In this document: piece after piece, positions 2,700 to 62,862 of the stretch
How positions within the stretch are numbered: position 1 is the first letter of the stretch
Layout of the letters: each line of letters starts with the position of its first letter
Source of the DNA: Cloeon dipterum
Lineage: Eukaryota; Arthropoda; Insecta; Ephemeroptera; Baetidae
DNA: 64,000 nt
Direction of reading: 5' to 3'
Assembly: GCF_949628265.1 (NCBI RefSeq)
Contig: NC_088789.1
Location: forward strand, 1,364,001-1,428,000
Notes under the pieces: model-generated
Seen by the model: the letters and a program-made list of their open reading frames with translations, nothing else
Told to the model about the DNA's origin: nothing
Database searches by the model: none
Made by a program: the position numbers and the translations under genes

Positions 2700-3540
2700 A
2701 CCGACAACTTTGAGAACCAACTCTTGGCGCACCGAGTTTCAAGAAGCCATCAGCACATATTTCACAGACCACTTTCACTGGTATCTAGTAACGAGTGTGT
2801 AACTGTAACGTAAATAACTTTCACTGCGGCTGCGGCACTGGCCACCAAACGATGCAGACACTCCTCTTTGCTGCCGAGCTGCGCTCGCTGCTCTTGCTCT
2901 TGTCGCTCGTGGGCGCCGAATAATTTTTTTGCATCGGCATCGAGGAGGCGTATTCACTTTAGCGAGACATGCTACAGCCATCAGCGGCTTGCTGCTGCAC
3001 AGCCTGTTAATGGTCAGACCGACCAATGAGAGAGCGCGAATTTTCTTAGCAGTTACCAACCAGAGACGACAACGACGCTAAATGATTTTGGCATTATTCT
3101 TCTGCTAAATTCATAGTTCTCATGCCACTCGCAATTTTATTCTAATAATAATTGATTTTGTTAAAACAATCTATTGGTATTTTTCCTTTGAGTGGTTATT
3201 GATTTAATTAAAATTGAAAGAGCCCTAATGAGTAAGGTTGAAGAATTTGGCGCAATTATTTAAAAGATAGGAACCTCTCATTGGTGATTATTGTGCAGAT
3301 TATACGCAAGCGTGACCACAAGGCACAAAAGAGAAGGAGGACAAAAGACGGTAGATGGAGTGAAGTTAACTCCCCCGAAGCACCCAAATTGGGCAAGGGC
3401 AAACCAGCCGCCAAAGAAGGGGGCGTAACCGGTGGACACGGCAAGCAAGAGTGCAGTGAGTGCACTAGTGCAGCTGCAGCGAGTATATGAGTGCACTGCT
3501 CCCCGCGAATAGGGGTCATGGTGCACCGCAATGTTTAATT
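2700..3540. other. Utx upstream region
   Basis: This is the 5' flank of Utx. It is moderately GC-rich from 2820 to 3010 and AT-rich beyond. No TATA box stands out. Short open frames occur on both strands but none has family features. The Utx 5' UTR and promoter most likely lie within 2700-3060. Confidence 0.4.
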
Positions 3541-3544
3541 CCCT

Positions 3545-4560
3545 CGGTTACGCCCCCCTCTTCGGCGGCCGATTTCGGCTGTTTCGACGGCCAAAAATTT
3601 AAGTATTTTTAATAAAAAAAAGTCCGGTGAAAGGATATAAAAGGCTAAATTCACGCTGGTCGCCTCTTTTTGATTTGCGTTAGCTTGACTCCTAAATTTG
3701 CACTCCTCCTCCCCCTCCCTGATTGAACTAAACTGCAGCACGACTTCTCTATCATTAGCCACCGGCGTCTTTCAGTGCACACATTGCATTTATATCATAT
3801 CGCTTTTTCTATTATACTATTATGGCTATTATGTTTTAATCATACAATTTTTTTACCATGAAAAAGGGATTCATAATTGGAGGAATAAAAAATCGATCAC
3901 ACCACACGTATATACTCTTATTCGCGACAAGCGTTAACATGTCAGTTATTTTATTATTATGTGCGCAGTTCTCTTTTACCAAATAATAAATAGGCTGGGG
4001 TAGTATAATTATAACAAGATATTTTTCTTACGTTCGTTAAAAAAATAGAAATACAACTAAAAATATATCATTTTTTGGAAAATTCAAACAAAATATTCTT
4101 TTCCAGCACTTCTTGTGACGAACGGAAGAAGCCGTCGCGGAAAACAAATACTTTTAAAATTGTTTAAAAAGGAAATTTTTACTCCACGTGGAGTTTGCAC
4201 CGTGAAATAGGGCTGAAAATACCAAAAGATGAGGAATGTCAGGCATTCTTTTCTTGCATTGACAATTTTTGACACATTTCAAGCTGAGGGTACAAAATCA
4301 TTCGAAAACTAACCCCCTCTACACAAAAGCTCTGACCCTGCTTTTTTCTGTGAATTGAATAAACACGAAAGCTGTGTTATACCTGCTACTCCTTTTTTGG
4401 AACCTGCATGCTGTTTTGTTGAATAAAAGCATTCTTGCTTTTGAATAGGTTTGACAAAGAACCGCATTTTTATTTTAATATAAATTTTTACCATGAAGAA
4501 GGGATTCATAATTGGAGAAATAAATCGATCATACACGTATACTCTTAGGTACAGTATATG
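3545..4560. repeat. ~620-640 bp repeat block, copy A (two units)
   Basis: Two units in tandem: the landmark beginning ACCATGAARAAGGGATTCAT occurs at about 3856 and 4491. The block continues with a TTTTCTTACGTT stretch and a palindromic CTCCACGTGGAG at about 4180. The upstream part (3545-3850) carries a TATA-like GATATAAAAGGC at about 3635. The block is repeated at 7505-8507 plus 11415-11836, and partly at 12262-12742. It is AT-rich with no convincing ORF. Gene 1 of the small-protein pair starts 160 bp after its end. Confidence 0.8.
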
Positions 4561-4718
4561 ACATGATGTTTTTCTTACGTTACAAAAATAGAAATACAAC
4601 TAAAAATATATTATTATTATTATTTGGAAAATTGCTTCACTCGTCGTCAACAAAGAGTGGAGTTTACTTGACAAGAAATTACTATGAAGTGTCACTTTTA
4701 AACAGACACGGTTTCAAT

Positions 4719-5219
4719 ATGGGAAAATTCTTGGTAAAAACACATTTACTCTTCATGTACGTGAACTTTTTATTATGTTTTTTCTTCTTTGGTGAGCTTT
4801 ATTATCTATTATATAAGTTTCTATAGTTATCAATTTTATTTTTAAAATTTAAATGTTGTAGCTATTCTAACCTATAATCCCCGGCCTGAAGAGAGGGACG
4901 ATGAGTGTCTAACACCTGAGGAATTCTGCAAGATTGTTCAGAGCGCCAAGAGATGTTACGAATATTTATCTTTGATCAAGACGAAGATGGACATGTTAGT
5001 GGATTGTGGGGACAGATGCAATACGTAAAATTTCGCCACTTATTAATAATGAGAGATTATTAAAAATATTTTCTCATTTTTTCCAGGCCTTGGTACCAAA
5101 CGATAACTAGTCAGACGAATGAAAAATATTTTCTTTTTACTAATGCTAGTGCAGTCCTTAATATTATAGTGATTCTACTTCATTTAATTTTAAAACCTCT
5201 GATTGATGATGATTTGTGA
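4719..5219 (+). CDS. small secreted or GPI/membrane-anchored protein, unrecognised (gene 1 of a convergent pair)
   Basis: Three exons: 4719-4791, 4862-5024 and 5087-5219 (TGA at 5217-5219). Donors are GGTGAGC and ACGTAAAA; acceptors are TTGTAG and TTCCAG. Phases are 1 and 2 and the frame stays open, giving about 122 residues. The N-terminus MGKFLVKTHLLFMYVNFLLC runs into a Phe-rich stretch and looks like a signal peptide. Exon 2 is acidic, then Cys-bearing and helical (ECLTPEEFCKIVQSAKRC, then LVDCGDRCN), spacing C-x6-C-x8-C-x17-C-x3-C. Exon 3 has an N-glycosylation-type NAS followed by a hydrophobic segment (VLNIIVILLHLIL) near the end, as in GPI-anchored or tail-anchored proteins. An AATAAA lies at 5258-5263. 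I do not recognise a family. The minus-strand gene at 6362-6942 has the same exon layout and intron phases. Confidence 0.5.
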
Positions 5220-5435
5220 CGACCGAATTAATTAAGAGGGCGAGATGATTGTGGAAAAATAAAAAGAGTTTTAGAAAATATTTTGATTTTATTTTCAATC
5301 CTCCTAGCTGCATAATAACATTTTGATCATTGCGTAAAACAAATTGTTGATTGCATTCAACGATGATTAAAATAATAATATTCAATTGTCACCCTGTATA
5401 TCAATCCGCACTTTTAACTGAAAAAAGTTAAACAG
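5203..5435. repeat. dispersed repeat overlapping the 3' end of the small gene
   Basis: From GATGATTTGTG to the tail TTCAATTGTCACCCTGTAT this segment is repeated at 13330-13395 plus 15278-15447, where it is split by a GC-rich insertion. Its last ~45 bp recur near 600-655. The copies differ by scattered substitutions and small indels. Confidence 0.75.
5258..5263 (+). promoter_or_regulatory. polyadenylation signal AATAAA for the small gene at 4719-5219
   Basis: AATAAA about 40 bp after the TGA stop. It lies at the start of a segment repeated at 13330-13395 and 15278-15447. Confidence 0.45.
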
Positions 5436-6232
5436 AGCTCGTCTAACGTTTTCAATAGAAATGATAATTCTGTAAATTATGCGGTGCTCTTGACTGTCGA
5501 TACTGGCGCCTGTAAGGTCAGTAACAGGCCAAAGAGTGCCACATTAAAACAGTGCCCTAAATCTATCTACGAAAAATAAACACTAATAAAACACCAATGT
5601 GGTAAACCTTTCTGCAACACCAAATTAAGAAAATTCATCATTACAATATCCACGCAGAGCTGGGAAGGCTCACCGACGTGCCGAGTTCTCACTGCTGCCG
5701 TATAGCCATGCACGCGGTTTTAACTCACTCGATCTCTGCTCGTTATTCTTGCTGGGCCAACTCGCGCTCCAAATGCGTCTCTCGATATTTATCAAATTTG
5801 TCTTTGTAATATTTATTTTTGTTCCTCTTTAATTATGCTTCCTCATTCAATTATTATTCCTTTGATCTCTTAGTTAACTGAGCCAATATTCAACTCGGCC
5901 AAATAATAACGCCACCAATCGGTCATAATTATTCACAACTCGTCTACTCATGCACTGCAGCGAGTTGTAATAATTATGAGATTCTGGAACTATTATTTGC
6001 CTTTATTGCCTTTGAGCAGTTAGAAATTCTCAATACTGAAAGTTAATAAAAACTAATAAATCTGTGTGTTGCAATCACACAGGACTAGATAGTTCTCAAG
6101 TTATTTCTCAACCACTCACAAATTAAATAACTTCCCAGTATATTATTCCTTTAAATATGCCTTGAAAATCTAACGCTGTTTAATATTTTATAATCAGAGC
6201 ATGGACATGCAAAAGAAATGAAAAGTGGAGGC
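5436..6232. other. intergenic, no feature seen
   Basis: AT-rich DNA between the two small convergent genes. No exon-like stretch with usable splice sites was found. A 60 bp segment near 5490-5555 is loosely similar to 6330-6400. Confidence 0.5.
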
Positions 6233-6238
6233 TTTATT
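6233..6238 (-). promoter_or_regulatory. polyadenylation signal AATAAA (minus) for the small gene at 6362-6942
   Basis: The plus strand reads TTTATT, giving AATAAA on the minus strand about 125 bp past the stop of the minus-strand small gene. Confidence 0.45.
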
Positions 6239-6361
6239 AGCTTAAAACTGATCAAAACAGTAGTACGGTTTACTGAAAACATCATGTCGTTTAGAGAAAA
6301 AATAAAGTGCCAATTCATAGGTGGTTGGTTACGGTGCTATTTGTCAGCCTGGGCGCCTTTG

Positions 6362-6942
6362 TCATAATGGCACCCCTAAGATCCGTAGCAGGCCAGAACG
6401 TTGTGCAACAACAAACAACAAAAGAAGGCAGAAACCGCAAAGTTTTGTGGTCTCTGCGTCTTTAGTATACTCCCTAAAAAATATTTTTTAGTAAAAGACG
6501 GAAATTATTTTGATGCCGAAAGCCCGAAACTTACTCTACCAGCCTTTTTAGCCTTCTTTTCATGATGTAATGGTCCACTTCCATAATATTTTCAAGCATG
6601 GTGCATGATGAGCGTTTCTTTCCGTCGCTCAATTGCGCCAGACAGGCATTCGAATCGAGAACGAGTGATGTAGCCGATTCCACGGACACTGCAACGTTAT
6701 TCAATTTTATGATATTCGTCTCTGGTGAATAAATTCTCTGCTTTTTGTAAAATAGTTTTGGTTTCTGTATGGATTTTTGTGAAATTTATGAAACATAAAA
6801 TGAAATTTAAATTCTATAGTAATAAGACCTTTACAACTTGATAAGAAATTTTACCACAGAGACACCAGCCGAAAAAAAGATGGACGGATATAAAAACCAC
6901 GTATTTGCGAAATCCCGAGCATGTCGATTGATCCAGATCCAT
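6362..6942 (-). CDS. small secreted or membrane-anchored protein, unrecognised (gene 2 of a convergent pair)
   Basis: Minus-strand exons are 6942-6855 (ATG at 6942), 6688-6535 and 6473-6362 (TGA). The donors are G|GTAAAA and AGA|GTAAGT; the acceptors are TTGCAG and TTTTAG. Intron phases are 1 and 2, exactly as in the plus-strand gene at 4719-5219, and the joined frame is open for about 117 residues. The N-terminal exon encodes a hydrophobic signal-anchor-like stretch (YVVFISVHLFFGWCLC). The middle exon encodes a Cys-containing, then basic helical part (NACLAQLSDGKKRSSC, then IMKRRLKRLVE). The last exon encodes a hydrophobic segment (LCGFCLLLLFVVA) close to the C-terminus. Sequence similarity to gene 1 is weak, so common descent rests on architecture. 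No known domain was recognised. The start ATG is the first in frame before the hydrophobic stretch. Confidence 0.45.
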
Positions 6943-7504
6943 TTCACGCGTGACCTATTTTTCGAATCAATTAAAACTTTTGCTATAGTTCTTTACGGTA
7001 TGCGAGCTATTTTCAGACTACCTCAAATAAATATTAGTTGCATTGCACCATATAGTGACTTTGTTCATAACATGTGTTTCAGTAATTTAATAGCTTTTTT
7101 ATTTATTCTTAAATCGTTTTTTATTTCATGATTGCTTCAGAAACACTTAATAATTTTTTTCATAATTTAATAATAACGCTTAAAACAATGGAAAGTTTGA
7201 ATAAAAGATTTTTGTATATGAGTCATCCTGATAAATAATATCATCATTTTCCTGTCCAAATACAACAATCCCGCCAAAAGTAATCCCGCTCCTATTGAAA
7301 TCACACTCCAGCCACTAGATGGCTCTAGCAAACACACGTAATCAGCCCCTGTTCACTCATAAAATATGGCGCGTAAATGCGCCAGCTAAGAAGTTCTGCG
7401 GCCACACACAGGAGGCAGGTCGATAGCTTTTTCAGCCAATCAGAGGCCGTCTCGGAGTTTGTTGGCTGTTACGCCCACGAAAAACTCCGCACACACACCA
7501 CTCT
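6943..7504. other. intergenic, no feature seen
   Basis: AT-rich up to 7250, then a more GC-balanced stretch (7260-7505). A plus-strand 97-codon open frame begins at 6838 but has no coding features and overlaps exon 1 of the minus-strand small gene. A promoter for that gene should lie here but no motif is clear. Confidence 0.4.
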
Positions 7505-8507
7505 TCGTCCCCCTCTTCGGCGGCAGATTTCGGCTGTTTCGACGGCCAAAAATTAAGTATTTTTAATACAAAAAATCCGGTCAAAGGATGTAAGAGGCTA
7601 AATTCACACTGGTTGCCTCTTTTTGATTTGCGTTAGCTTGACTCCTAAATTTGCACTCCTCCTCCCCCTCCCTGATTGAACTAAACTGCTCTATACTTCT
7701 CTATCACAAGCCACCGGCGTCTTTCAGTGCACACATTGCATTTATATCATATCGCTTTTTCTATTATACTATTATGGCTATTATGTTTTAATCATACAAT
7801 TTTTTACCATGAAAAAGGGATTCATAATTGGAGGAATAAAAAATCGATCACACCTCACGTACACTCTTATTCGCAACAAGCGTTAACATGTCAGTTATTT
7901 TATTATTATGTGCGCAGTTCTCTTTTACCAAATAATACATAATAGGTCCAGTAACATGACGTTTTTCTTACGTTACAAAAATAGAAATAGAACTAAAAAT
8001 ATATCATTTTTTGGAAAATTCAAACAAAACATTATTTTCCAGCACTTCTTGTGACGAACGGAAGAAGCCGTCGCGGAAAATAAATACTTTTAAATTGCGT
8101 TTAATAAGGATATTTTTACTCCACGTGGAGTTTGCACCGTGAAATAAGGCTGAAAATACCAAACATTGAGGAATTCCAGGCATTTATTTTCTTGCATTGA
8201 CAATTTTTGACACATTTCAAGCTGAGGGTAAAAATCATTAGAAGTAACCCCCCTCTACACAAAAGCTCTGACCCTGCTTTTTTCTGTGAATTGAATAAAC
8301 ACGAAAGCTGTGTTATACCTGCTACTCCTTTTTGGAACCTGCATGCTGTTTTGTTGAATAAAAGCATTCTTGCTTCTGAATAGGTTTGACAAAGACCGCA
8401 TTTTTATTTTATATAATTTTTTACCATGAAAAAGGGATTCATAATTGGAGGAACAATAAATCGATCACACCACACGTATACTCTTATTCGCAACAAGCGT
8501 TAACATA
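7505..8507. repeat. ~620-640 bp repeat block, copy B (left part)
   Basis: Near-colinear copy of 3545-4560, same orientation. The unit landmark occurs at about 7808 and 8427. The TATA-like site of copy A is changed here to GGATGTAAGAGGC. The block stops at about 8507 in the middle of a unit, and the sequence that should follow (GTCAGTTATTTTATTATTA) resumes at 11415. The interruption is the element at 8507-11417. Confidence 0.85.
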
Positions 8508-8526: not shown

Positions 8527-8824
8527 GCAATAACTGTGACCCGCGGCAACTGTGCCCTAAGTTAAAATGGTGGGAAGAGGAGGGGTGTGGCATCAGGGTT
8601 TCGTCTTTAGGGAGGGTCTTTCGAGGGTGGTTGTGGCCTAAATATAATGCTACTTTAAATAAATAAATTTGCTTACAATATCGTTGAATTCCTGCTTAAT
8701 TCGCATCGTATATATTTAAAATGTGTGTTGATATCAAGATAATAACATGACAATCGAGTCTGCTCTTAGATAATTAAATTCTAAAAATTTTACTTAGGGC
8801 ACGATTGCCGCGAGTCACAGTAAT
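8527..8824. repeat. short TIR element forming the outer part of the left arm
   Basis: The segment has its own terminal inverted repeats of about 33 bp: CTGTGACCCGCGGCAACTGT at the left, and its reverse complement with few changes at the right (GCGAGTCACAG end). The mirrored copy is at 10980-11395. Confidence 0.75.
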
Positions 8825-9057
8825 TATTGCCGTTCACTCGCTTCAACTTTGACCGCGAGACGAGCTTGCTTGCAACGCAGCACCCTCCGAGGGTGTTTAG
8901 CCCGTGCACATATTTAGGCTGCCTGTGCATCAAAAGGGGGCGCGCTGCTTCACAATTAAAAAAGTCGCTCGCAGGTCAAACTTTTCCTTTGCAGCCGACC
9001 GCTTTTGTGTGCTTGACAATGTGTATTGACTGGCGGGATGCTGGGGGTGCGTGAAAA

Positions 9058-10746
9058 GTCACGAAAGAATAAATAAAATATACGTGTGCTGAAAAAGATA
9101 ATTCATCTTACCAGAATGAGAATAATTGACAAAATTAAGTACCCTGTCGAAACATTGAAAAATAATAACGATAAATGAATAAAAAATGTGGTTTTCTTGT
9201 CAAAAATATAATTTGTTGAATTTTCCAATTCAACGTCCTTCAAATATACAGGAATCCTTGAAAGAGACACCTTGACCGATACTTCATGTTAATAATATCA
9301 TAAAATTGCCATAACATGATAGTTAAATTAATGCATCAATCACGATACAATGAGTAAGTGAGTAATGCAACATAATTTCTGGAAACTAGTAATACTTATC
9401 TGATCTAAATCAAGATTTCTAAAAGTTTCAATTCAATTATTCTCTTCCTGGAGACTTAAATGTCATAAATTAAATTAGAATTAAGTTCATTACAGATATT
9501 TTTTTTAGATTTATTATTCATTTAAAGAAATAAATAATTTCTCTATAGTGCGTTAACCGCTGCAATGGGTCCGTGTCTATAATTAATGATTTTTCCGATT
9601 AAACTCGCGAAAATTTCGACCAGAGTATCGTTTTTGGAAAGAACGAAAAATTGTCTTTAACTAGGTGCTAGTTTAGATCGAGAGCGTTAATTATGCCAAG
9701 AGGGCAGCGGCTGACCTTGACCTCTTTGAGGGCTTTAAAATACATTAAGTCCAAACTACTCGTGAAATCGTACATAAACTGACCTCAATGGTGTCAATCT
9801 TTCTATTCGTTGCAAAATTCTAAAGACCAAAAGCTACACGTCTATTTGTAACGTTTTTAGTACATTTTAAATTTATTTAAATTCAACCAACAACTGAGGG
9901 GGAAAATCAACAGTTGAACAAACTTCCAGAATTTTTGAGCTGCGTGCAGTATTTTTCATTAGCTATTGCATCAACAAAAACGACTAATTAAATACACATA
10001 TATTATAATATTGTAGTCTAAGTCTAGATCTTTGCTTTTTTCGGCAAACTCGTAATGAACTTTTGTATCAAGAATTGTTATTTTTATCTTGTGTAAAATA
10101 ATCATTGCTTTAATTGTATAAGGCAGCGAAATAATGAGAAAAAAATGAAATTTTATACCGACTTTGGTCTTCTCGTACAAGCCCGCGTCGATTCATTCAA
10201 GAGTGCGGCCGTATTTTATTTTGCGCCAGATATCGATCTATTTTTTTCAGTTCTAATTGGCGTAAACGCTTTGGTCTTGAAAAAATATAGTTCAATTCTT
10301 AGTTTAGAAATTAATTGGTCATTAACAATTTTCCGCTAAACTTACTATAAACCGAGATATTAATTAAAAACACCAATTTTACAATATTTAAAATATTAAA
10401 TCAACTATAAATACGACAGTTGTTTAACTAGTAAAATATATTGCCTTCATTGATCTGGAAATTACCAATGTCAAAAGAAAATTTTGATCTATAAATATTT
10501 CCATTTTTAATTTTTTATTTAAACTTCGAACGCAAGAATATCAGTTCCTTCCTGATATTTTTACGGTTCAGATGTCGCCATTCCACTGCGTTTTACAAAT
10601 ATAAATAAATGTATACTCAATTATCGTTTCGTTTGATTGCTAACTTTTTAAAAACGATTTTAATTTAGAATACTGGGTGTACGGCACCAATTTTCCCGCG
10701 CTTGATATTCGATTTTTGTGGATGAGAATCCAAGAGAGGTTCTTTC
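9058..10746. other. non-coding spacer of the long-inverted-repeat element
   Basis: About 1.7 kb of AT-rich DNA between the arms. No exon, RNA gene or repeat shared with the rest of the window was seen. Confidence 0.5.
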
Positions 10747-10979
10747 GTGATTTTCCACGCACCCCCAGCATCCCGCCAGTCAATACACATTATTGTCAAG
10801 CACACAAAAGCGGTCGGCTGCAAAGGAAAAGTTTGACCTGCGAGCGACTTTTTTCATTGTGAAGCAGCCCCCCCTTTTGATGCACAGGCAGCCTAAATAT
10901 GTGCACGGGCTAAACACCCTCGGAGGGTGCTGCGTTGCAAGCAAGCTCGTCTCGCGGTCACAGTTGTAGCGAGTGAACG

Positions 10980-11395
10980 ACAACTGTGACTCGCGGCAAT
11001 CGTGCCCTAAGTAAAATTTTTAGAATTTAATTAACTAAGAGCAGACTCGATTGTCATGTTATTATCTTGATATCAACACACATTTTAAATATATACGATG
11101 CGAATTAAGCAGGAAATCAACGAACACAACGGTGCAAGCAAATAAATTAGAAGAGTGGGGAAAGACAGGAAAGAAATATTAAAAAAACAAAAATAAAGGA
11201 AATATTTAACACAATTACGTTTATGCCAACCTGCCAATTTATTGTCACATTGTAAGCAAATTTTTTTATTTAAAGTAGCATTATATTAAGGCCACAACCA
11301 CCCTCGAAAGACCCTCCCTAAAGACGAAACCCTGATGCCACACCCCTCCTCTTCCCACCATTTTAACTTAGGGCACAGTTGCCGCAGGTCACAGT
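10980..11395. repeat. short TIR element forming the outer part of the right arm
   Basis: Reverse-oriented copy of 8527-8824 with the same ~33 bp termini (ACTGTGACTCGCGGCAATCG at the left) and an extra ~120 bp inserted at about 11124-11245. Confidence 0.75.
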
Positions 11396-11414
11396 TCCCT
11401 GTCACTCATATTAT

Positions 11415-11836
11415 ATATGTCAGTTATTTTATTATTATGTGCGCAGTTATCTTTTACCAAATAATAAATAGTTCCAGTAACATGACTTTTTTCTTACGTT
11501 ACAAAAATAGAAATACAACTAAAAATATATCATTTTTTTTTGGAAAATTTAAACAAAACATTATTTTCCAGCACTTCTTGTGACGAACGGAAGAAGCCGT
11601 CGTGGAAAACAAAAACCTTAAATACTTTTAAAAATGTTTAAAAAGGAAATTTTTACTCCACGTGGAGTTTGCACCGTGAAATAGGGCTGAAAATACCAAA
11701 AGATGAGAAAAGTCAGGCATTCTTTTCTTGCATTGACAATTTTTGACACATTTCAAGCTGAGGGTACAAAATCGTGAGAACTAATCCCCCTACACAAAAG
11801 CTCTGACCTTTTGCTTTTTCTATGAATTGAAAATAA
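11415..11836. repeat. ~620-640 bp repeat block, copy B (right part)
   Basis: Continues the unit broken at 8507, from GTCAGTTATTTTATTATTA through the CTCCACGTGGAG palindrome to the GTGAATTGAA-type end. It is cut again by a GC-richer insertion. Confidence 0.8.
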
Positions 11837-12262
11837 AACCAGCCCGCTGGTTCGCATTGTTAAGGCACTCCCAGGAGAGTGTCAAAAGCAATGGGAGGTA
11901 TTTGAGCAGTTGGGAGGTCTAATACTGGCTACCCAATGTCAGATGTGGCAAAAAGTGGTTAGTTTATAGTGACTCGAAATTCTCAAATTGCTCAACGGGC
12001 TGGGAGGCGACTCGCTACTTGCTGCTTTGCACCTTTCCAGCATGCGTGATTTGGCTTCACGGGAGGAATGTCTAGCGTTTCAATGCAGTCCTCGGTGCGG
12101 AGGCATGCAAGTGGCCCTTGAGTGGGCTGGGTCCCTGTGCGGCCTGGTGCGCCCATTCAATCCGTTCGCGGTAATATTGGGACCAGGGTTTCAGCATTCG
12201 TGCCAGCGCAGTGCGCGCCCTTCCCGCTCCGAGAGGACAAGGATAAAAAGAGCAAAAAAAAA
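11837..12262 (+). mobile_element. SINE-like or retroposed insertion with A-rich tail
   Basis: About 425 bp of GC-richer DNA interrupts the repeat unit between GAATTGAAAATAAAA and CATGAAAGC, where other copies read GAATTGAATAAACACGAAAGC. It ends in a run of about ten A. Near its start is GGTTCGCATT, a loose match to a tRNA B-box. No conserved protein is encoded: the 112-codon frame at 11988 and the opposing 78-codon frame look random. It could also be a 5'-truncated LINE tail. Confidence 0.5.
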
Positions 12263-12742
12263 ACATGAAAGCTCCCTGTGTTACCTCTGCTACTCCTTTT
12301 TGGAACATTTTGTTTTATTCTATTAAAGTATTCTTGCTTTTAAATGATATTGACAAAGAGCTGCATTTCAAACACGTTATATTTCAATTTTTTTGCAAGC
12401 AGGCGGAAAGAAATACTTTTAAAAATATTTAAAAATGAAATCTTATTACTCCACGTGTAGTTTGCACCGTGAAATAGGGCTGAAAACACCAAAAGATGAG
12501 GAATTTCAGGCATTCTTTTCTTGCATTGACAATTTTTGACACAATTCAAGCTGAGGTTACAAAATCGTGAGAACTAATCCCCCTACACAAAAGCTCTGAC
12601 CTTTTGCTTTTTTCTGTGAATTGAATAAACACGAAAGCTGTGTTACTTGCTACTCCTTTTTGGAACCTGCATGCTGTTTTGTTGAATAAAAAGCATTCTT
12701 GCTTTTGAATAGGTTTGACAAAGACCGCATTTCAAAAACTTC
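12263..12742. repeat. ~620-640 bp repeat block, copy C (partial)
   Basis: Repeats the second half of the unit: the CCACGTG-containing stretch at about 12452, TTGCATTGACAATTTTTGAC, and the GGAACCTGCATGCTGTTTTG end. A diverged piece precedes it at 12263-12400. Confidence 0.75.
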
Positions 12743-13329
12743 GCTTGTTCTCTTGGAATAAGTGAAATAAGATGTTCTGGGAAAATGATGTTTCAGAAAA
12801 TAATTTGTTGGGATAATCTTAGCATGTTCTTGGGATGTCCTCAAATATTTTCAAAAACTTTCTTACAAAAGATTGTTCAAAGGATGTTTCTAAGGAATAA
12901 TTTTCGTTTCGATCGAACGATTATTCCAAAATTAATCCAGATTAATCTGAATTAGCCCAGAATTGATTTTAAATTAATTTTTTAGAATAATTTTTCCCGA
13001 CAAATATGAAATGTTCTAAGATTAACCGGAATATTTTTGGAATAAAAATTTCTACGCGGGTTTCGCATCGCCTAGAGTCTAGGTATAAAGAGTTCACTGC
13101 AGCGCTGCACAAGTTTGTTTATCAAATGAAATTTTAGATGTTAATGCATTACTTGAAATACGTAAAAAATTTGTAAAATCGCTTGATATTTTTTTGTAAT
13201 TTATTTTGTTAATGTGTAATCTTGAATTGTGTGTATTTATATAAATGGATAGCTTGCATTTTGGAGGAGAGTTACATCATGTATGACTTATTATGCCATA
13301 AAATAAATAAAGTTTGAATTTAAACCCTT
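12743..13329. other. intergenic, no feature seen
   Basis: AT-rich DNA between repeat copy C and the split repeat at 13330. If the repeat-plus-small-gene unit was duplicated, a gene copy would be expected here, but no exon similar to 4719-5219 is visible. Confidence 0.45.
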
Positions 13330-15447
13330 GATTTGGTGATGATTTGTGGATTTGTGACGACCAAATTAACTAAGAGGATGAGAAGATAAACAACTATAAT
13401 AATTTGTTTTTTTGGACCCTATTTTTTGTTTTTTTGTTTTTTTGTTTTTTTTTGGACCCTACTTATACGATACCGACTTGGAACGGACTTTTTTGGACGC
13501 AAGGGACGGGGGCGGGGTGGGGGGGCCGAGGGAGAAAGTTGGGCCGGAGGTTGTTCCACTGGGGCCCGTAGGGCCCCAGTGGGCCCCGCTTTGTAAACCG
13601 CTTCCCTATACATCTGGGAAAAAAATCGCCAAAACGGGGCCGATCGGGCCGAAACCCGGATGGCCGACGCAGGGTCGGCCACAAACGCGGAAACAACCGT
13701 GAAACCCGAGATTCCTCCCATAGGCGAATTTAAAAAAAAAATAAAACGAAAAAGGCCTTTTTGGAGGGTCCCACGGGGGCAGCGGGGGTTGAAATAGGGA
13801 TGGGGGGTTGAAACCGGCGCCATCGGAAGCAGAATTTAACCCTGAGTTCGGCCATCACCGGTTTTGGGCCGCAAGTTCCATAGGAGCCGAGATATAAAAT
13901 TCCAAAGCCGCAAAAACGTGGTTTGGACAAGAATTATTTTTTTTGAGGGGCTCCAGCAAGGTCCCAGGACGTCCGACGGCCCGCCGCGACCCCTCATTCG
14001 AAAGAGGCCGCAATTAGCTTCATTTTGATGTGCGGGTTTGTCATCCTGCTCGAACCGCGCGGAAGGTGGAAGTGCCGAAAGGGTAAGGGTAAAAAACAGG
14101 AAAAAGTCGAAGCTCCCATAAGGTTAACACTGCCCGAGACATGGAAACCTAAAAATCCAAAAACCCCATCAAAATCAAAAATCAATTTTGCCCATCCTAA
14201 GACCTCCCACCGAGTTTTAGCCCTGTGCGACCTCCTCAGGGTCAACGGTGACCCTTCAAAGGTACAAAACGCCATTTTTCGGTACTCGCCGCCCCCCCGC
14301 GGAGTCCCTATGGGCTTCAGCGCCCCCAAACTCGAGATTCGGGCAGGCGACGACTGGAGGAGGCCAACGGTGTGCGGAAAAGATTTTTCCGCCCCATACC
14401 GAAAAAGTTATTAACTGGGCAAATTTTGCCCATTTTCCGGTCCGCACCTTTCGGCAGGCATAACGTCGGACCTGAGAAAAAATTAAAAAAAAACGGCTCT
14501 AGAGTCGACGCGGAATTTATCGACGAGCATTTTAAGACCAAATTCGACCTGATCGGACCAAGATCCCCGGAGGAGTAGTCTTTGGCGCGCGGCGTGAAAG
14601 GGTTTTTCGCCGCCCATAAGGTTAACATGGGAAATTGGAATTCGGATTTCGGGCCGAAAAAAATTCTTTTCGGCCGCGATTACTGTGCTATACTCTTCCG
14701 CCCGGCCAACAGTCCCTGCAAACCGAATTTGGCGGAAATCCGGCCCATAGGCGAATCACGGCGGCGCATCGAAAATCCGCGATTTACCCAGCACGGAAAT
14801 GAACAGGCTGAAAAAACGCGCATCGGCGCCGCGGAGCCGCCGGGCGCTGAATCTCGAATTTGACTATAGCACACCCACGGCTGAGTGCGCGGGGGTCTGA
14901 AACCGAATTATGACCGGTCTAACTCTTCCCAAATTCGTTTTATAGGCGATTTTCGGTTTTTGGTGTGCAAATCGCGTGCACGGCAGAAGGAGCGTGCGGA
15001 GCGATTTTCGCGCGCGACCCCTCCCCGGAGCCGTCTCGCCGGCGCGCGCACCCCCCAACCACCCCCGCTGACCTTTCTCAGGGTGGCTGCCCTGAAATCT
15101 CTCAGCGAGCATGAATTCTCGTCGTTTCTGGCGCCGAAGGCGCCGTCGGCCCCCTCCGGTGCTCGCGGGGGCCCCGGAGCGCCCTCGATCGGGATTTGGG
15201 GGGGTTGCAACTGCCGCCCACATCGACGCGAAGCGCTACAGCGCTTGTTTAACTCGTCAATATTAAATATTCAAACAATTTTGTTGAAAAATAAAGAGAG
15301 TTTTAGAAAATATTTTTATTTTATTTTTAAACCTCCTAAGCTATATGTCATAAAATATCATTGCGTAAAACAAATTGTTTATTGCAATCAATGATGATTT
15401 AAATAATATTCAATTGTCACCCTCTGTATCGATCCGCACTTTAACTG
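13330..15447. repeat. second copy of the 5203-5435 repeat, split by a GC-rich insertion
   Basis: 13330-13395 matches the start, and 15278-15447 the remainder, of the repeat at 5203-5435. The intervening ~1.85 kb is the GC-rich element described separately. Confidence 0.75.
13400..15250 (+). mobile_element. GC-rich insertion (GC-rich dispersed family, longest copy)
   Basis: Strongly GC-rich DNA with abrupt edges, inserted in an AT-rich repeat. It begins after T-rich tracts at 13405-13455. It shares motifs and order with AT-richer sequence in DHX57 introns: a GACCTGATCGGACCAAGATC-like segment followed by GGAGGAGTAG and a CATGGGAAAT segment at 14540-14640 (compare 27355-27450), plus GGGGCCC/GGGCCCC clusters. 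Several overlapping open frames of 100-170 codons occur on both strands, as expected from GC-rich DNA with few stops. None shows a protein domain. Element type is unknown. Confidence 0.6.
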
Positions 15448-15640
15448 AAGAGCCATGCAGGCCGCGTCTGCTTTATTTGGCCAGTTGCTGAGGATTTAAT
15501 AAATTAAAGTAATTCATAGCTTTTTATATTTGCTGAAAAAACTCGTCTTTTTTCACCGCATGGAAAAGGATAGAAATAGTTTAGAATGCACCACCCAATT
15601 CCCAATGAGTAAGGGAGGGAGGGGGTTCTTTTGTGGGGAG
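15448..15640. other. intergenic leading to the ankyrin gene
   Basis: Short unique stretch with a G-rich run (GGGAGGGAGGGGG near 15611). It is likely upstream flank of the gene whose first exon ends near 15796. Confidence 0.4.
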
Positions 15641-15796: not shown

Positions 15797-16087
15797 GTAA
15801 GTTTTGTTTTTTCTCTCTTAAGTCTTTAAAAGATCTCGCCTAGCTCCTAGAAAATTAAGGCGATTATTTAAAAAGCGAATATTCAATGATAAAGACAATA
15901 TTATTGGTAAAATATTATAGCAGAAGTGAACACGTGCTTTTCTTAATATTGTACCGTATGCGTCTTGATATTATATAGATACAGTTATAGTTTTGTAAAA
16001 TAAAAATTTATAAAATATTTTAATTATAAAAAGCTAATGTTTCACATCAAAACTCTTTCAACAAGGAATTGTTTTTCTTTGTAGGCC

Positions 16088-16705
16088 ATGGAAGGAGCAC
16101 TCAACGAGAGGGAGTTTCTGCGAAGGATCCTGCCGTGCCTGTTGGGAAGCAGCCCGTCCGCCGCCATCGCCACCCTGCCGTCGCTTCACGTAGCTGCCAT
16201 GCTGCGGGACGTCGAGGCCGTGCGTCAGCTTATCTGCGCGGGTGCAGACGTGAAAGAAAAGTGTGTGGCTCTGGGCGCGAGTGCTCTACATTTCGGAGCA
16301 ATGAATGTCCACCATGGTCGAGAGATGGTGGACTTCTTGTTCGCGCAAGGACTAGCACTCGAAGCTAAGGATTTGTTAGGCCTTACGGCGGCCGATTACG
16401 CTATTCGGTCGTGGAACTTTGAGTTGTCGGCGCACATCAAAAGTGGCGGGCCGATATTGGCCGCGACCAGCAAAGACATTTCCTCGGCACTCGCCACCGA
16501 AGAAGGCCTGGAGAAGGATCGTGAACTTTTCGCGAAATTCGAGTGCCCCACGAGGTTTGTTTATAGAGTGTTGAAAGGTGTACTTTATTGTATTATTTCA
16601 CGATGTGTTTCATAATCATTTCAGGATATTTATTTGAAGAAAAAACATCCTGGTCTGGTAGAGACCAGCTTCAGGGAAATATCGTCATACCGTGGTTGGT
16701 ATTAA
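16088..16705 (+). CDS. small ankyrin-repeat protein
   Basis: A probable non-coding first exon ends at about 15796 (CACA|GTAAGT). The coding exon opens after TTGTAG at 16085 with ATG at 16088. The frame shows ankyrin-type repeats: LHVAAMLRDVEAVRQLICAG, then ALHFGAMNVHHGREMVDFLF, then GLTAADYAIRSWN. That is two full repeats and a third partial one, at residues ~35-135. After residue ~155 there is a donor at 16554 (ACGAG|GTTTGT), or weaker ones at 16567 and 16577, joining an acceptor at 16624. Only the 16567 donor keeps the good-looking tail frame DIYLKKKHPGLVETSFREIS with TAA at 16703-16705. The 16554 donor gives a stop after three residues, and the 16577 donor gives another open tail ending at 16716. 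Length is therefore ~160-205 residues. Ankyrin repeats mediate protein contacts; the partner is unknown. I could not assign an orthologue. Confidence 0.6.
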
Positions 16706-17809: not shown

Positions 17810-20369
17810 CTATCTTCTCTTTGGTTTAGACTTGTTAACGTCCCTCAGAAAAGGTCGAGGTTGGCTAAAACCGTTCTCCTGCTCACTAAAAAGGTCCTTC
17901 ACTTGCACTAATCGAAAGGTTTTGGGTTTTGGCACTTTGAAACCAGACGTGTCCGATTTCAGCAACAGTTTGAGCACACCCCAGTTTTGGCTTTCTCTCC
18001 CATTCTGCTCTTCGTCTTGAATTTGCTCCAAGAGCCACGAAGAGTTTCGCAGCTCCACCTGAAGCCTGACTGTTTCTTCTGGGCTGACGTTTTTGCTTAC
18101 ATTCAAATATCTCTCCATTGGATTTTCGATGTAGAGTGGGCAATGTTCTGGTTTGGGCATTTCCTTTCCAGAAACCAGAGACAGGCCTTTAGATGCGAAG
18201 TCAAACCCAGCATAAAAATCAAAGAAGCCAGTAAGGAGTTCAGCCAGTGTCTCTTCATTTTTGGAAATTGATAGGTTGGACAGGTCCCTCAGAAAGGTGC
18301 AATTGATTCCATCAGCAGTCATTCTTTTATCATTCGGACCTGCAATATTTTCATATATTTATTCATATTTCTTGTTTAGGAATTATTTTAAAAATTCCAG
18401 GGATGTGAAAATCGGACAAATTTTATTTGGGAAATTGTCGATTATTTTTAGAAAATCAGAGAATATTATAAAATGAACAAAACAATTTTCCAAGATGATT
18501 GCCACAATTTTGGGTATTTAGCCAAAATGTTTAAAATTTTCTCTAATGGTTCAGTTGAAGTTTTCAAACATATTTTGTTTAAGTCAGCTTTTATAATTTA
18601 GGCAGTTTTGACGCCACTATCCACTCGTGAATTTTAATGATTTCAAACACAGACCCCTTTCGAAAATCTGCAATATTTGAAAAAAAAAATAAACGTTCAA
18701 GACTTAAAAGTAATATTTTACGTTTTCTTACTTTTAAAATTTCATAATTTTTCTCGCCCTGGTAGCAATTAATTTCCTTTGCTAAATAAAGGCGTAATCA
18801 GTAAATATTGAAAATTTTGATTTTTGGGGCCCTTTCGGTCAAAAGTATATGATAAAAAAATTGTTCGATCGTTTTAATTCCACAGCCGTAAAATTCACCA
18901 ACCTGCAAGGTGAATTAGGGTTCCTAGAGAAGGCAGCACCATCTTCTTTTGGAGATAAAAAATGGTGAGCAGTGTTAACGAGAAGTTGGAAATCCATCTT
19001 CCTGGGGTTTGGTTCGTAAGGCCGTTTGATTGGGCCCATTTCCTAACAAAGCACACCAAAGGACGCACTCTACTGTCGATTTCTCCCATCAAGTACAACA
19101 GTTCAGACATATACAGGGCAGTCCTACAAAAGAGAAGCATGAATAAACAATAGTTTATTTACAAATAATTAAAATTGTGCCTTACATATTCGTCATGGAG
19201 AGATCACATTCAACCATGGTCAGATCATGCCTGAATTTTATAATAGGAACCCTGGCGTGTAGTATCCGTTGAATTTTAGAGAAACCGGGCAGCATGTGCT
19301 GGATGAAATCGGCAATGACCTCCATGTGTCTCTGCACCAAAGCTCTTCCATTGCAAGACTGATTGTTTTTTCCATGGTAGACGAGACGACTACCCTGCGA
19401 TTTTATTTCCTAGAAGGAAGGCAGTGAGTCTTCAGTCTTAAGACTCTCTCGTTGGCAAAAATTTAGTCACCTGGCCCTCTTCGAGCCCTCCCAATTGCAA
19501 CACAAGATCCAGGTCACAGCCGGCTTTGCCAAAGCCATTCACAGAAGAGCCAAAAGGCAGAGCTTTAATCAAAGGAAAGGCGCCGGAGAGAGACATCTCC
19601 AGCTGGCGGGCGGTTAAAAATCGCAGTCTTGTCCCGACGTCAGCCATCTTTGTCAAGTTGCGCAAAACAGATATTTGTTGCGAAATCTGAATATACGTAC
19701 AATGATGATGATACATTTAATTTTTAATTTATGTTTTGTTTTTACCGACTGAGCTGATCTCATTTGATGGAGAATTTCTTCAGGCTTGGCTTCCGAGTCC
19801 GAAACGGCCTCAGGACAAGGACAGAGAGTACCTTTTCCAGCCTTTTTTATGTTGTTTGCTCTCATCCACAAGAAAGGGGTGACGCAAGGGACCGCAGGCA
19901 TTTGCTGGCCAAACGTCGCAGAGTCCATCATTTTCCTGGCAGACTCCTTTGACTCGAACTCGACAAGCATGAAGTGCTTTTGTTGACAAAAACATTAGAT
20001 TGTTAATTTATTTCGGTTATTGGAGCATTACCAGTTCTTCATTGGTTGTGTAGTAAAATGTCTCTCTCACTTTGCCAAACTCGTGACACAATTCTGAGAG
20101 ATCACTGTATGAATTGCCAGAGTAAACTTGTACCAACACGCTTCTCTGAGCTTGCCCTCTTCGCATGTCGATCATTTCATCAAATGACTGGAGACTTCTT
20201 GTTTCGGATGAAAATTTTCTCTTTGCTGCAATGAAAGGAAGATAAATAAAATCCTCAGTTAAAAAGTAAAATTACCTAATATTGAGAGTGGTCCAGAAAA
20301 ACACTGGCGTTGTCTTCTCATCGGAAGAGATCGCAATACGGTACAAAATTTGAACATTCTTAGCGCCAT
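17810..20369 (-). CDS. MTPAP: mitochondrial poly(A) RNA polymerase
   Basis: Non-canonical poly(A) polymerase that adds A-tails to mitochondrial mRNAs. Seven exons on the minus strand: 20369-20276, 20225-20032, 19976-19746, 19686-19471, 19409-19186, 19123-18903 and 18339-17810. They total 1710 nt, 569 residues, close to the human protein; all junctions are GT-AG and phases fit. The first exon is Arg/Ser/Phe-rich like a mitochondrial targeting peptide (MALRMFKFCTVLRSLPMRRQ). Residues ~65-120 form the RNA-binding-like domain. The nucleotidyltransferase core has GSSVNGFGKAGCDLDLVLQ at ~219-237 (Gly-Ser plus the Asp-x-Asp metal site), with FRHDLTMVECDLS in exon 5. The PAP/25A-associated domain follows with NGLTNQTPGRWISNFSLTLL and the C-terminal NCTFLRDLSNL. 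Its start lies 544 bp from that of TTC4, so the two genes are divergent. Confidence 0.95.
18485..18830. repeat. dispersed repeat in MTPAP intron 6, shared with two sxc introns
   Basis: The stretch around GACCCCTTTCGAAAATCTGC and the following CTTTGCTAAATAAAGGCGTA region is repeated at 62200-62640 in the same orientation and at about 52440-52750 in reverse complement, both in sxc introns. No coding content. Confidence 0.75.
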
Positions 20370-20912: not shown

Positions 20913-22906
20913 ATGAACTCTACTCTCCTGTGCTCGGAAAATTCTTCTAACAAGGTAACAGAACTTCTCATATTGAAATGTTTATCTTTTTAATCATATC
21001 ATAAATAACTGATATTGTTCCAATTAAATTCGTGCAGATTTCTTTACTATTATTATTCTGTTATAATAACTAGGCGGTGGACACCGGAGATGATGTGCAG
21101 GTGGAGATAAAGACGAAGAAAACAATGACCCAAGAAGAGAGATTGGAGCTGTGCGAAAGGCTGGACCGAGAACTAGATGACTACATCTCCGGTCTCGAGA
21201 AGAAATCCTACACTGAAGGTTGGCCTGAAGACAGATGGCAAGAGGTATGATACATAAATACTTCATATTTCATGTCTCATCGCTTCTCTACATTCGTAGG
21301 AAATGGAGAAGCACCCATTTTTCATGACAAAGGTGCCCGAGGAAGGTAAACTGCCGCCACTTCTCGAGGGCATCCAGCAATTGAAATACGATCCTGCTGA
21401 AAACACAGCCGAAGGTTTTATTTTAAACCACCGACTAATTTTTATAATGAAGCCTTGATTTTATTTAGAGCTCGCAACAAACTACAAAGAGGATGGGAAC
21501 TTTAATTTCAAGCACAGCAAATACAGAATGGCCATAATGAGCTACACGGAAGGCATCAAAGCGCAATCAGTAAACAACACGCTAAATGCTGAGCTGCATA
21601 ATAACAGGGCGGCCGCACAATTTTTCTTAAAAAATTACAGGTACGGATAATTAAGGTTGGTAAAGACAGCGATTTGTCAGGGAATCCTGTCTGTACTCCA
21701 AATCGTGTGTAACAGTCGTGCAGTAGTCTAAACTATTTTAAAAAATAATAAGAATGAAAAAATCATCAAATGTCAAGCGTTTTTCCAATGTAAAGAAGCT
21801 AGAAGGTTTTGAACTTGTGTAGGAAATTGGTGCGCCAGGTGTTTTGAATTCTGTCCGTACCTGAATATTCTTTGAAATTAGAGAAAAATTATTTTTTAAA
21901 AATGCTCCTGATATTTACAAAGATTTTATATAGTTGTGTGTTGTCATCTATGCTAACAAGTATGATTATTTCAGAATTAATTCCTTATTAATTTTTAAAA
22001 TTTATTTGTAGGTCCTCGTTGCTAGATTGCCAAGCAGCTATAAAGTTGCAGTCAAATTATCTTAAGCCCATTACCAGAGCAGCGAAGTGCTGCTTACAAA
22101 TGAAGAGAGAAGACGAATGCATTTCATATTGTGACCAAGGTCTAGCAATTGCTGGGGAGAATGACAAAGAACTAGTGGATATGCGAAAGAAAGCGATTTA
22201 TCAAAAGGTGAGTGGTTAGGAATTGTTTTTCTAACGAGACTAATGCATAAGTACAGAAAGTGAAAGCCCGGGACGAGAGAAAAGCCACGGTCGCCAAGCG
22301 TTTGGAAGAGCAGTTCCTGGGCAAGATGAAAAAGACGATAAAAGAGAGAGGCATCCAGGTCAAGGGCTGGGCCGACCACGACCATTTGGACATCGCGGCT
22401 CTCGAACCTTGCTTCCCGGCGGCAGCTCATTGCCCGGTGTCATTGGGCGAAGACGGCAGATTAACGTGGCCCGTCTTGTTCCTCTATCCACACTACGGCG
22501 TCACGGACCTTGTTCAGCAGTTCCACGAAGACACCACGTAAGCGCTTCCTCATTGTCACAGCCATAAATACAGAATTCTTTGCATTCAGCTTCAGAGAAC
22601 AGCTGCAAGAGCTCTTCCCGGCCGACTCGCAAGCCGAATGGGACACCGAACGAGTTTTTGTCAACATCGAAGACATGAAAATTTACTTTGAAAGCAGCTG
22701 TAAGGAGGAATTGGTGCCTGTTTCAAAAGACTCGACACTTCTGGAGGTGCTCCAAGATCAAAGGTGCAAACTGCTCGCTCAAAGGTCCGCAGCGTTGATT
22801 TTACTGATGAAATTCTATTTGCAGGTACATCGTGCACAGTGGAACGCCTAGCTTTCTGGTTGTGATTGCTGGTAGTGCAGCAGAAAATAGGATTAAAGCT
22901 TTGTAA
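20913..22906 (+). CDS. TTC4: TPR-domain Hsp90 co-chaperone TTC4/Dpit47
   Basis: Cytosolic/nuclear co-chaperone that links Hsp90 and Hsp70 through a TPR domain; the Drosophila orthologue Dpit47 also contacts DNA polymerase alpha. Eight exons: 20913-20954, 21074-21244, 21300-21414, 21469-21640, 22012-22207, 22257-22537, 22590-22763 and 22825-22906, giving 410 residues. All sites are GT-AG and the frame is unbroken. N-terminal motifs include [20 protein letters not shown] (the conserved HPFFM-P region). The TPR block spans ~110-225 ([60 protein letters not shown]). The C-terminal wheel-like domain runs from about 265, with [20 protein letters not shown], and ends [22 protein letters not shown] box precedes it. 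Recognition is very strong. Confidence 0.95.
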
Positions 22907-41800: not shown

Positions 41801-44800
41801 ATGGGACGCGCGGACACGCACCGAGATCCCGTCCGTGCCCCAACTCCACCATTAATGACGACAAAGTCCCGCTATAACGACTACGTCAAACTAGCACAAG
41901 AGGGGCAGCAGCAGGCTGCCGCTGCTGCTGCGTCCGCGCCGATGGTGGGAGTATATATACCATACTGAAAAGAAAGAAAGTTTCTCCGCGCGTCCGAGTG
42001 GAGTGGAGTGCCGTGCCGCCGACTGCAACTAGTGCAGCGGCCGAACAGAAAAGCTAAAAGCTGGCTGCGCGCGAGCGGAAATTTATGAATGCTCGATGCA
42101 TGGAATGGATATCGGTATTGGGGCGAGCGCGGAAAAAAGGTGCACAATTAACTGGGTCGATCGAGGGAAAACAGGTCAAGCCGAATAATAATCAAGTGGG
42201 TGGGTTTACCTTGGAGATAGTGAGGCTGGTCGTGGGTCGGCGGCGGCGGCGGCACGGAAGAGATGGGCGCCGAAAAGGCGCTGCCGCTGCTGCCCAGCGG
42301 CGGCGGATGATGCACTCCCATCGGTGGCGGGGGCGGCAGCGGGCCCGGGGGATGGTGCGGAGGCGGCCCTTGCTGCAGTGAGGCGGGCGGCTGCATGCTC
42401 GACAGTGCACCCAGTGGAGTGTAGCTCTGCGGCGGCGCCGGCTTCAGAAACACGCCGGCCGGCTCTCCTCGCTCTCCGCCCGCCGAGTGGTAGACACCCT
42501 GTCGGGGCAGAATCAGCACTCGATTTAGTTTGCCTAACCAACTCGCGGTCGCAGTCGCAATCGCAATCGGCAGGCCGATTGGCTTTGCCTGCTCTGACGC
42601 CTCGCGCCGCCGTAATTATATTAAGCCGCATTGCTTGCTCACTGTTACTGCTTCCACTCGCTTTATCAACAACGCGGCGGCGTTTATCGCAACATTATCT
42701 CACTTTCGGCTGCTGCATTTCAGAATAAAGAACAATTATTCCAGAAGACAACCAGCACGAGTTAGAAAAAATATACAATTTTTAATGATGTGACATATAA
42801 TAATTATCTGATTTATTTAGTGATTTTGTTTCGGCATGAATTGAAAAGAAAACACACAATTTTAGCCAGGGTGGTTAAAAAAAGGCCGGCTTAAATTCAC
42901 TTTTTTTTTAAATCGGTTCAAATTTATGGCTACATTAAGTTAATTTTGATGCTGAAATTATATTCTTAAAATTCAAGACGAAGATGTGTTTGATGCTTGC
43001 ATTATTAATTTTTTTACTTCCCGATATTTAGCTATTTTTGCCAATTTAGCTGAATTAGGGTCGAAATTACTTTTCAGAAGCCGGAATATTTGGAATATTT
43101 GCGAGTTTTTCTGCAATTTGGCGCTATTTCGAAACACATGAATTTTTATTGAAGAACGAAAATCCAAATGATGGATAAGGAATTTAAAAAATCAATTAAA
43201 AAGCCATTAGTTTCACCAAGAGGCCGAAAATTTTTAGCGATAAATTCGGGAAAATGCGGAAAACCCAAAACTTGTGTGTTTTCCAGCTGTTTATTTTTTG
43301 CAAAAAAATTGTGATTTTAAGCGCCTTGCAAAATGAGCGAGCCCTGATTACTGGTCAAGATAAATGGATTATGCAGACTAAGCTGTGCTAAAAGTAGATC
43401 AAATTTATCATGCGGACGTTGATTGACAGCAAAGCTTTGGAACAAAATCCACTCTTCGCCGCAAAATGTAACTGGCTGATAGGACCAAAATAATGGATTT
43501 ATGCAACTTCTTCGCACACGCAACGCGCCGGTTGCCGCACTCCTCAATTGACACATAATGGCTTTCATCTGCGATTGACACGAGAGGTGACCTGATTGAA
43601 TTGATGTTATTATTTCAAAATCAGTAAAATGCTAGAGATAATAAACTCGTCTGGGGTGAGAATTGCGAAATTTACCCTTTCTACGCCGCTCATTGTCAGC
43701 GGAGTGAGACCACTAAAAGCGACGCGTTTGCAGCACTTGGTCGATTAAATAATTAAAAGCCAGATTTAATTAGACGTGTGCCTTTAGAATCGCGACTTCA
43801 AAGGATTTGATAGTCTGCGTCATCCAGTCCAATTAGTAGCAGTTTATTCAGATTCAGACTAAACCAGCGAAAGTCTCGGTTTAACGCATTAAAAACTTTT
43901 AATATGAAGGAAAATAGCAATTTGCCATGTTATGAAACTTGTATTTAATAATATTCTTAGTTAAGACTTTGGGAGTCAAGTGAGAAGAGCATGATTAAAA
44001 ATCACTGGTTCTTACCACTCAATTTTTACCAATTCCTTGCGCGAGAAATACAAAAATTAATTTGAGGTCAAAATTTCCTCTAGAGTTAAGTTAAGGTAGT
44101 TAAAAAATGATTTAAAATTGAATTTCCTGCAAGAAACCGGTAAAAATTGAAATAATGCTTTGAACATTTTTTTAAAAACCCTGAAAATGAATAGTTTAAA
44201 AAATTAACCTCTACAAAAACAAAATTCATACTTGATAACAAGGCGTAGAATTATCTGAAAAGTGAGAAAGCTTGGTAAACTTAGCAAACAAACTTAAAAA
44301 TCAACTAACCGATTCAGCCCCTGAGGCGGGATTGTGGTGGTGGTGGTGGTGGTGCAGGTGGTGGTGCTGTTGGGCCACGTACTCGGACGAGGGGCTGGAC
44401 GCGGCCACCTGCGACGGCGGCTGCACCATGGTCGTCGATTTGGTCTGCGTCGAGGAGATGCGGTACTCCATGCCGGAGATGCAGTAGCCTTCGGTGGTGC
44501 GCGAGTTGACGTAGACGCCGGTGATGGTGACGTCCGTGTCGTTGACGATCAGCGCCACCTTCTTGGGGCTGCGCAGCTTGATCACGTTCGAGAGCGGAAT
44601 GTCTTCGTCAGGGTCGTCGGCCGACGCGTCGTCCGTCGTGCTCTCGTCCTTCTTCTTGCGCTTCTTGTCCGAGGACAGCCGGCCGGCCTTGACCGACTCC
44701 TTCAGCTTCTTCTTGTCGTCGGCCAGCACCTTGTTCTTGCGCACGCGCACCATGTTGATGGAGGAGGTGGAGACGGTGTCGCCGTCGGCCTTCTTGTCGA

Positions 44801-46741: not shown

Positions 46742-46819
46742 CTGCAATCAACACCGACAACCACGGTTTTAATTAAGAATTATTTCAATTTCTTTGTTCA
46801 ATTCACAAAAACTGGTGTT

Positions 46820-51617: not shown

Positions 51618-62862
<11,245 letters not shown>

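Follow-up and report, generated by a model that had tools for sequence, protein, structure and literature searches.

Two small genes of no known family that stand tail to tail and may have been duplicated together and encode membrane proteins

The stretch of Cloeon dipterum DNA analysed here, which we call the window, is 64,000 nucleotides long and comprises bases 1,364,001-1,428,000 of contig C4 in a 190-Mb genome. Two short three-exon gene models converge within it, and they raise the question of what such a locus encodes and how the two genes came to stand side by side. The initial annotation had read them as genuine genes without a recognised family and as old duplicates of each other, encoding a fast-evolving secreted or GPI-anchored protein. 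Rebuilding both models letter for letter from the sequence bore out the structural part of that reading: the plus-strand gene, A, has 122 codons and a stop, the minus-strand gene, B, has 117 codons and a stop, and both frames are unbroken (Table 1). All four introns are bounded by GT and AG, with phase 1 followed by phase 2 in each gene, and an AATAAA does follow each stop, 39 nt beyond it in A and 124 nt beyond it in B. That this shared layout is unlikely to have arisen by chance is upheld by the same paired architecture found again at C4:780 kb and at C4:25.117 Mb. Three copies of one convergent pair provide an internal comparison that backs the gene models without transcripts. We regard A and B as very likely real protein-coding genes; annotation readily overlooks short genes that have several exons and no relatives. 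Our reading of the locus as a whole, which we consider finely balanced between right and wrong, is that A and B are unrelated genes of no known family, tail to tail and duplicated as a block, whose products are small membrane proteins and perhaps partners.

Table 1. Features of the A and B genes and of related sequences, in window coordinates
Feature	Position	Strand	Evidence or comparison
Upstream region of A	4592..4718	+	78% identity to A2 upstream, 120 aligned bases
A exon 1, hydrophobic N-terminus	4719..4791	+	Frame, splice and hydrophobicity analysis
A exon 2, Cys-bearing: C40, C47, C56, C73, C77, CLxPEE(F/Y)CK	4862..5024	+	Invariant in 3/3 paralogues
A exon 3, hydrophobic segment and charged tail, stop	5087..5219	+	Frame, paralogue alignment, hydrophobicity
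AATAAA of A	5258..5263	+	39 nt past stop
B exon 1, hydrophobic N-terminus	6855..6942	-	Frame and hydrophobicity analysis
B exon 2, ACL...C...ENIMEVD segment	6535..6688	-	ENIMEVD invariant in 3/3 paralogues
B exon 3, hydrophobic segment, stop	6362..6473	-	About the first 19 nt alone align well with B2; whole exon 46%
Dispersed repeat over last 15 B codons, stop and part of 3' region	6285..6410	-	Genome matches on C1 to C5
Upstream region of B	6943..7097	-	79% identity to B2 upstream, 155 aligned bases
Direct repeat left of pair	3551..4547	+	92% to 7506-8486
Direct repeat right of pair	7506..8486	+	Partner of 3551-4547
Dead A remnant, exon 3 end and 3' UTR start	13313..13393	+	76% over 76 columns to A1, 90% over 49 to A2
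Dead A remnant, rest of 3' region	15281..15449	+	85% over 177 columns to 5249-5422; ~1.9 kb insert between the two parts

Genome searches with five queries (A1 and B1 from the window, together with B2, B3 and A3; A2 was left out) placed relatives of A and B together at three loci among the matches listed: C4:780-782 kb, 1.37 Mb and 25.116-25.118 Mb. The only further confident match among them was a broken copy of A at C4:25.1129 Mb (E 6.7e-13). Copy numbers from these searches, in which the best candidates were scored, are lower bounds. Degenerate-codon patterns for the conserved cores of the two proteins, CLxPEE(F/Y)CK in A and ENIMEVD in B, each occur at three places in the genome, the same loci as the pairs, and the reversed-pattern control for each returned 0. 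Two other, weak matches, C5:7223346 (E 1.14) and C3:7661310 (E 0.041), were set aside because neither core pattern occurs at either.

Models built by hand at the other loci gave 127 codons for A2 and 117 for B2 in the second pair, where the first ATG tried was out of frame and downstream ATGs were picked to match the frame of exon 2, and 105 codons for A3 and 125 for B3 in the third. All six hand-built models have three exons, GT-AG introns and phases 1 and 2, and at every one of the three loci A lies on the plus strand and B on the minus strand, tail to tail. The proteins have diverged widely, with A1 sharing 45% identity with A2 and 38% with A3, and B1 sharing 53% with B2 and 25% with B3, in agreement with their annotation as fast-evolving. 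Judged from sequence, duplication has acted on the whole A+B pair rather than on a single gene, and a block of about 2 kb has very likely been copied at least twice on one chromosome. Between the window and the second pair, homology can be detected over about 4592-7097 (3039 to 4874 of L018), the stretch between the genes being mostly unalignable, and none was found beyond these limits. The introns of B are more alike between the two loci (about 97 of 115 aligned bases) than those of A (about 81 of 121; Fisher p = 0.002, from rounded percentages), a difference consistent with gene conversion affecting the B half. In the A+B block, the joint evolution of two unrelated genes can be put to the test in a simple setting.

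The nucleotide sequences of the copies have diverged by 29-49%, with frames still open. When A1 or B1 was subjected to simulated neutral substitution at distances of 0.29-0.49, the frame stayed stop-free in 0.12-0.68% of cases in all four comparisons. Within exons 1 and 2, 10 of the 12 alignment gaps have lengths divisible by three, and the remaining two (1 and 2 nt) sum to three; the corresponding figure for exon 3 is 3 of 9, and a 4-nt gap between A1 and A2 puts their C-terminal tails in different frames. Under a three-sequence GY94 codon model, with 2dlnL calculated against omega = 1, omega in A was 0.42 for the whole frame (2dlnL 10.1), 0.55 for exons 2-3 (4.1) and 0.61 for exon 2 (1.5), and in B it was 0.81 (0.8), 0.63 (3.5) and 0.79 (0.4) for the same partitions. 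Exon 2 by itself does not depart significantly from omega 1 in either gene. The initial annotation had proposed dN/dS among orthologues as a check on these genes, and among the paralogues the ratio speaks for one of them: on the whole-frame values A is measurably constrained, whereas B, indistinguishable from 1, is without demonstrable constraint. Pairwise counts for A1-A2 (dN 0.37, dS 0.73) are in line with the codon model, but in exon 2 of B1-B2 dN exceeds dS (0.14 and 0.09).

The ends of both proteins had been described as hydrophobic, and they are. The best 15-residue Kyte-Doolittle means at the N- and C-terminal ends are 2.39 and 2.65 in A and 2.19 and 2.32 in B, and hydrophobic stretches occur at each end of all six proteins. 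When the window's A and B were compared with stop-free shuffles of the same exons, however, the C-terminal segments exceeded the 95% level and the N-terminal ones fell below it. Part of the impression is thus owed to the T-rich DNA, and the N-terminal signal is less strong than it seems at first sight. In A2 the N-terminus is weakly hydrophobic (best 15-residue mean 1.65); the frame opened there by upstream ATGs is more hydrophobic but does not run in phase with exon 2. As for the middle exon, which had been called both Cys-bearing and helical, the cysteines stand: A keeps five in all three copies, and B has an invariant C45 with another cysteine nearby in each copy. A helix appears in the structure model of A exon 2, the one segment modelled. 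This single-sequence prediction placed one helix over residues 18-52 of 53 (best pLDDT 78.8, pTM 0.44), and the other four models (pLDDT 51.6-57.5) agreed poorly with the best; the predicted helix is of low reliability, and a lone helix from a single sequence says little.

The C-termini differ more among the copies. A1 ends in KPLIDDDL, A2 ends in a charged tail, and A3 is short and stops within its hydrophobic run, while the tails of B2 and B3 are basic or polar, by eye similar to each other and unlike the uncharged, repeat-derived tail of B1. A GPI-anchored protein would have a hydrophobic run reaching its very end, with a small-residue site ahead of it. Inspection by eye makes the annotated GPI anchoring unlikely: A does not look GPI-like, since in A1 and A2 charged residues follow the hydrophobic run, and B2 and B3 have their basic or polar tails, whereas A3 and B1 end without such residues. 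The products are probably small membrane-tethered proteins. Each would begin with a hydrophobic N-terminus serving as a signal peptide or a signal anchor, continue with 50-70 extracytoplasmic residues whose conserved cysteines may form disulphides, and then reach a second hydrophobic segment towards the C-terminus; in most copies a short tail of charged or polar residues comes after it.

The absence of a recognised family was confirmed across Pfam, NCBIfam (A alone) and the PDB, none of which gave a meaningful match. The best Pfam matches were Orf78 at E 1.9 for the three A proteins and DUF3593 at E 0.059 for the three B proteins, the latter scoring 13.8 bits against a cut-off of 25. DUF3593, Orf78, Alg14 and PCP_red were all rejected as family identities, each being below a meaningful threshold. 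NCBIfam, a prokaryote library searched with A alone, returned no match, and in the PDB the best match was at E 1.8 for A, with none for B at E <= 10. A single eukaryote genome was searched, so that 'orphan' here means absent from the Pfam, NCBIfam and PDB libraries. A literature search found no account of the A+B pair in the portions of the papers that it returned.

Several known systems invite comparison. TipE- and KCNMB-type auxiliary subunits of channels have two membrane segments and a Cys-bearing extracellular loop, and A and B would resemble them, if the N-terminal segment is uncleaved, in having two hydrophobic segments around a Cys-bearing loop. The A/B loop is much shorter than the TipE/KCNMB loop, and A and B differ from those subunits in having no significant Pfam or PDB sequence match. 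In C. elegans, peel-1 and zeel-1 form a linked two-gene selfish element with a membrane component. A and B can be likened to them, from sequence alone, as a linked and fast-evolving pair with hydrophobic segments. Aphid novel secreted proteins are described as products of taxon-restricted genes of no known family (PMC3574423). A and B are like them in being small, family-less and probably secreted or signal-bearing, and unlike them in being two unrelated genes that move as a convergent pair, here within the one genome searched, and in that both seem to bear a C-terminal hydrophobic segment.

The threefold co-occurrence of A and B suggests that the two proteins work together, and copies of A that stand alone bear on the same point. 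One is the dead remnant in the window (Table 1). Another dead copy lies at C4:25.1097 and 25.1129 Mb, in two pieces taken as one copy, and has an in-frame stop in exon 2. Searches of 82 kb of flanks (E 0.01) found no B remnants beside the dead A copies. The A frame is open in three of three copies with a B partner and in none of two without one (Fisher p = 0.1); as a sign of partnership this contrast is suggestive only, the copies being too few to show it. Functional partnership between the two products is a tentative proposal, and on balance we find it somewhat doubtful. As partners, A and B would act together in one membrane or as ligand and receptor, which could explain why the pair has remained intact where copies of A on their own have decayed. 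It is possible to carry the idea further, to a dedicated two-protein membrane system, either a compatibility or recognition pair or a poison with its antidote, in which A is lost when B is missing. We consider this highly improbable; if it were true, each whole-pair duplication would found a new specificity. More generally, if the products are partners, the three pairs amount to a small natural experiment in the duplication and divergence of a two-component system, and if they are not, to no more than a commonplace segmental duplication involving two little-known genes.

The second of these outcomes is the strongest alternative and stands not far short of even: A and B would be neighbours with unrelated functions, copied together by segmental duplication with no functional link. 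Neighbouring genes on a chromosome can duplicate together without being linked in function. The homology to the second pair spans both genes and short upstream regions and no more, the local repeats make segmental duplication easy, and B has no measurable constraint. What this alternative has to accommodate is the contrast, in small numbers, between the lone A copies, both dead, and the paired ones, all open.

An alternative of a different kind concerns the state of the genes rather than their relation. B, and perhaps parts of A, may be decaying, with B1 recently disabled when a transposable element overwrote its C-terminus. From about residue 103 (window 6410-6362) the C-terminus of B1 does lie inside a dispersed repeat. 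Among the matches listed for this repeat, 22 of the 25 non-self matches, on C1 to C5, overlap the exon tail, from which we infer that the last 15 codons of B1 and its stop are repeat-derived. Exon 3 can be aligned only poorly with B2 after about 19 nt, and, besides an omega in B that cannot be told from 1, the B1 branch is longer than the B2 branch. Against decay, the B1 frame is open, its splice sites are intact, its C-terminal hydrophobic segment is present, and its exon 2 is 88% identical to that of B2 with no gaps. We think it unlikely that B1 has been disabled.

The proposal of the initial annotation that A and B are old tandem or inverted duplicates of one ancestral gene was not borne out. 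The two genes agree in exon number, in intron phases and in the order of their hydrophobic and Cys-bearing parts, but their sequences are no more similar than shuffled ones: comparison of the A and B profiles with hhalign gave a probability of 0.4%, and the similarity of the middle exons was equalled in 589 of 2000 shuffles of residues and in 639 of 2000 shuffles of columns. The conserved cysteines also differ, A having five and B one invariant column with a second cysteine nearby. Upstream of A and B, the observed similarity score was reached by none of 500 mononucleotide shuffles, but against real composition-matched sequence one comparison of nine stood out (3 of 400, followed by 14, 34 and 37 of 400), and this likeness was dropped because it is clear in that one alone. 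Descent of A and B from a single gene is improbable, and we treat them as unrelated.

That the pair is the cargo, or constitutes the genes, of a mobile element is scarcely credible: 1-kb direct repeats flank the window's pair, copies lie at three places, and in L018 an inverted match of 14 nt (93%) lies close to the two ends of the block, at 3069-3082 and 4845-4858, but the 1-kb repeats are local and were not found at the other two pairs, an inverted match of the L018 type was not reported at the other two pairs, no terminal repeats are common to the copies, and there are just three copies, all with introns and all on one chromosome.

The surroundings of the pairs are rich in other repeated sequence. 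Further pieces of the ~1-kb repeat lie at 11417-11831, 12258-12368 and 12403-12732 in the window and at C4:1358640-1359017; among the scored matches its long copies occur at C4:1.358-1.377 Mb only, and its first ~50 bases are dispersed through the genome. The window also contains a foldback element (8532-9069 and 10740-11396) with arms of about 0.55-0.65 kb, pieces of which are 96-99% complementary. The match to the dead A copy at C4:25.1129 Mb stops about 50 bases before sequence common to this element, and foldback-related sequence (L019 1121-1576) comes directly after a dead A copy. The second pair is immediately preceded by long open frames that exist in many copies, on opposite strands, at L040 5864-6748 (+) and L018 494-1318 (-) and at L040 7524-8069 and 9348-9914; for two of them, L018 494-1318 and L040 7524-8069, Pfam gave no match at E 0.001. 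Vps35 exons (L038 2955-3413 and 5892-6479) precede the third pair by some 7.5 to 11 kb.

Elsewhere in the window, the minus strand at 44301-46772 carries an 823-aa open frame rich in Lys, Ala and Pro, with no Pfam match at E 0.001. Recognisable domains are encoded at 16085-16615 (ankyrin repeats) and 17810-18358 (a Cid1-type PAP-associated domain), with a sub-cut-off match to the TTC4 Wheel at 22465-22851, and TPR repeats, which by eye only resemble those of OGT, are found at 58080-58649.
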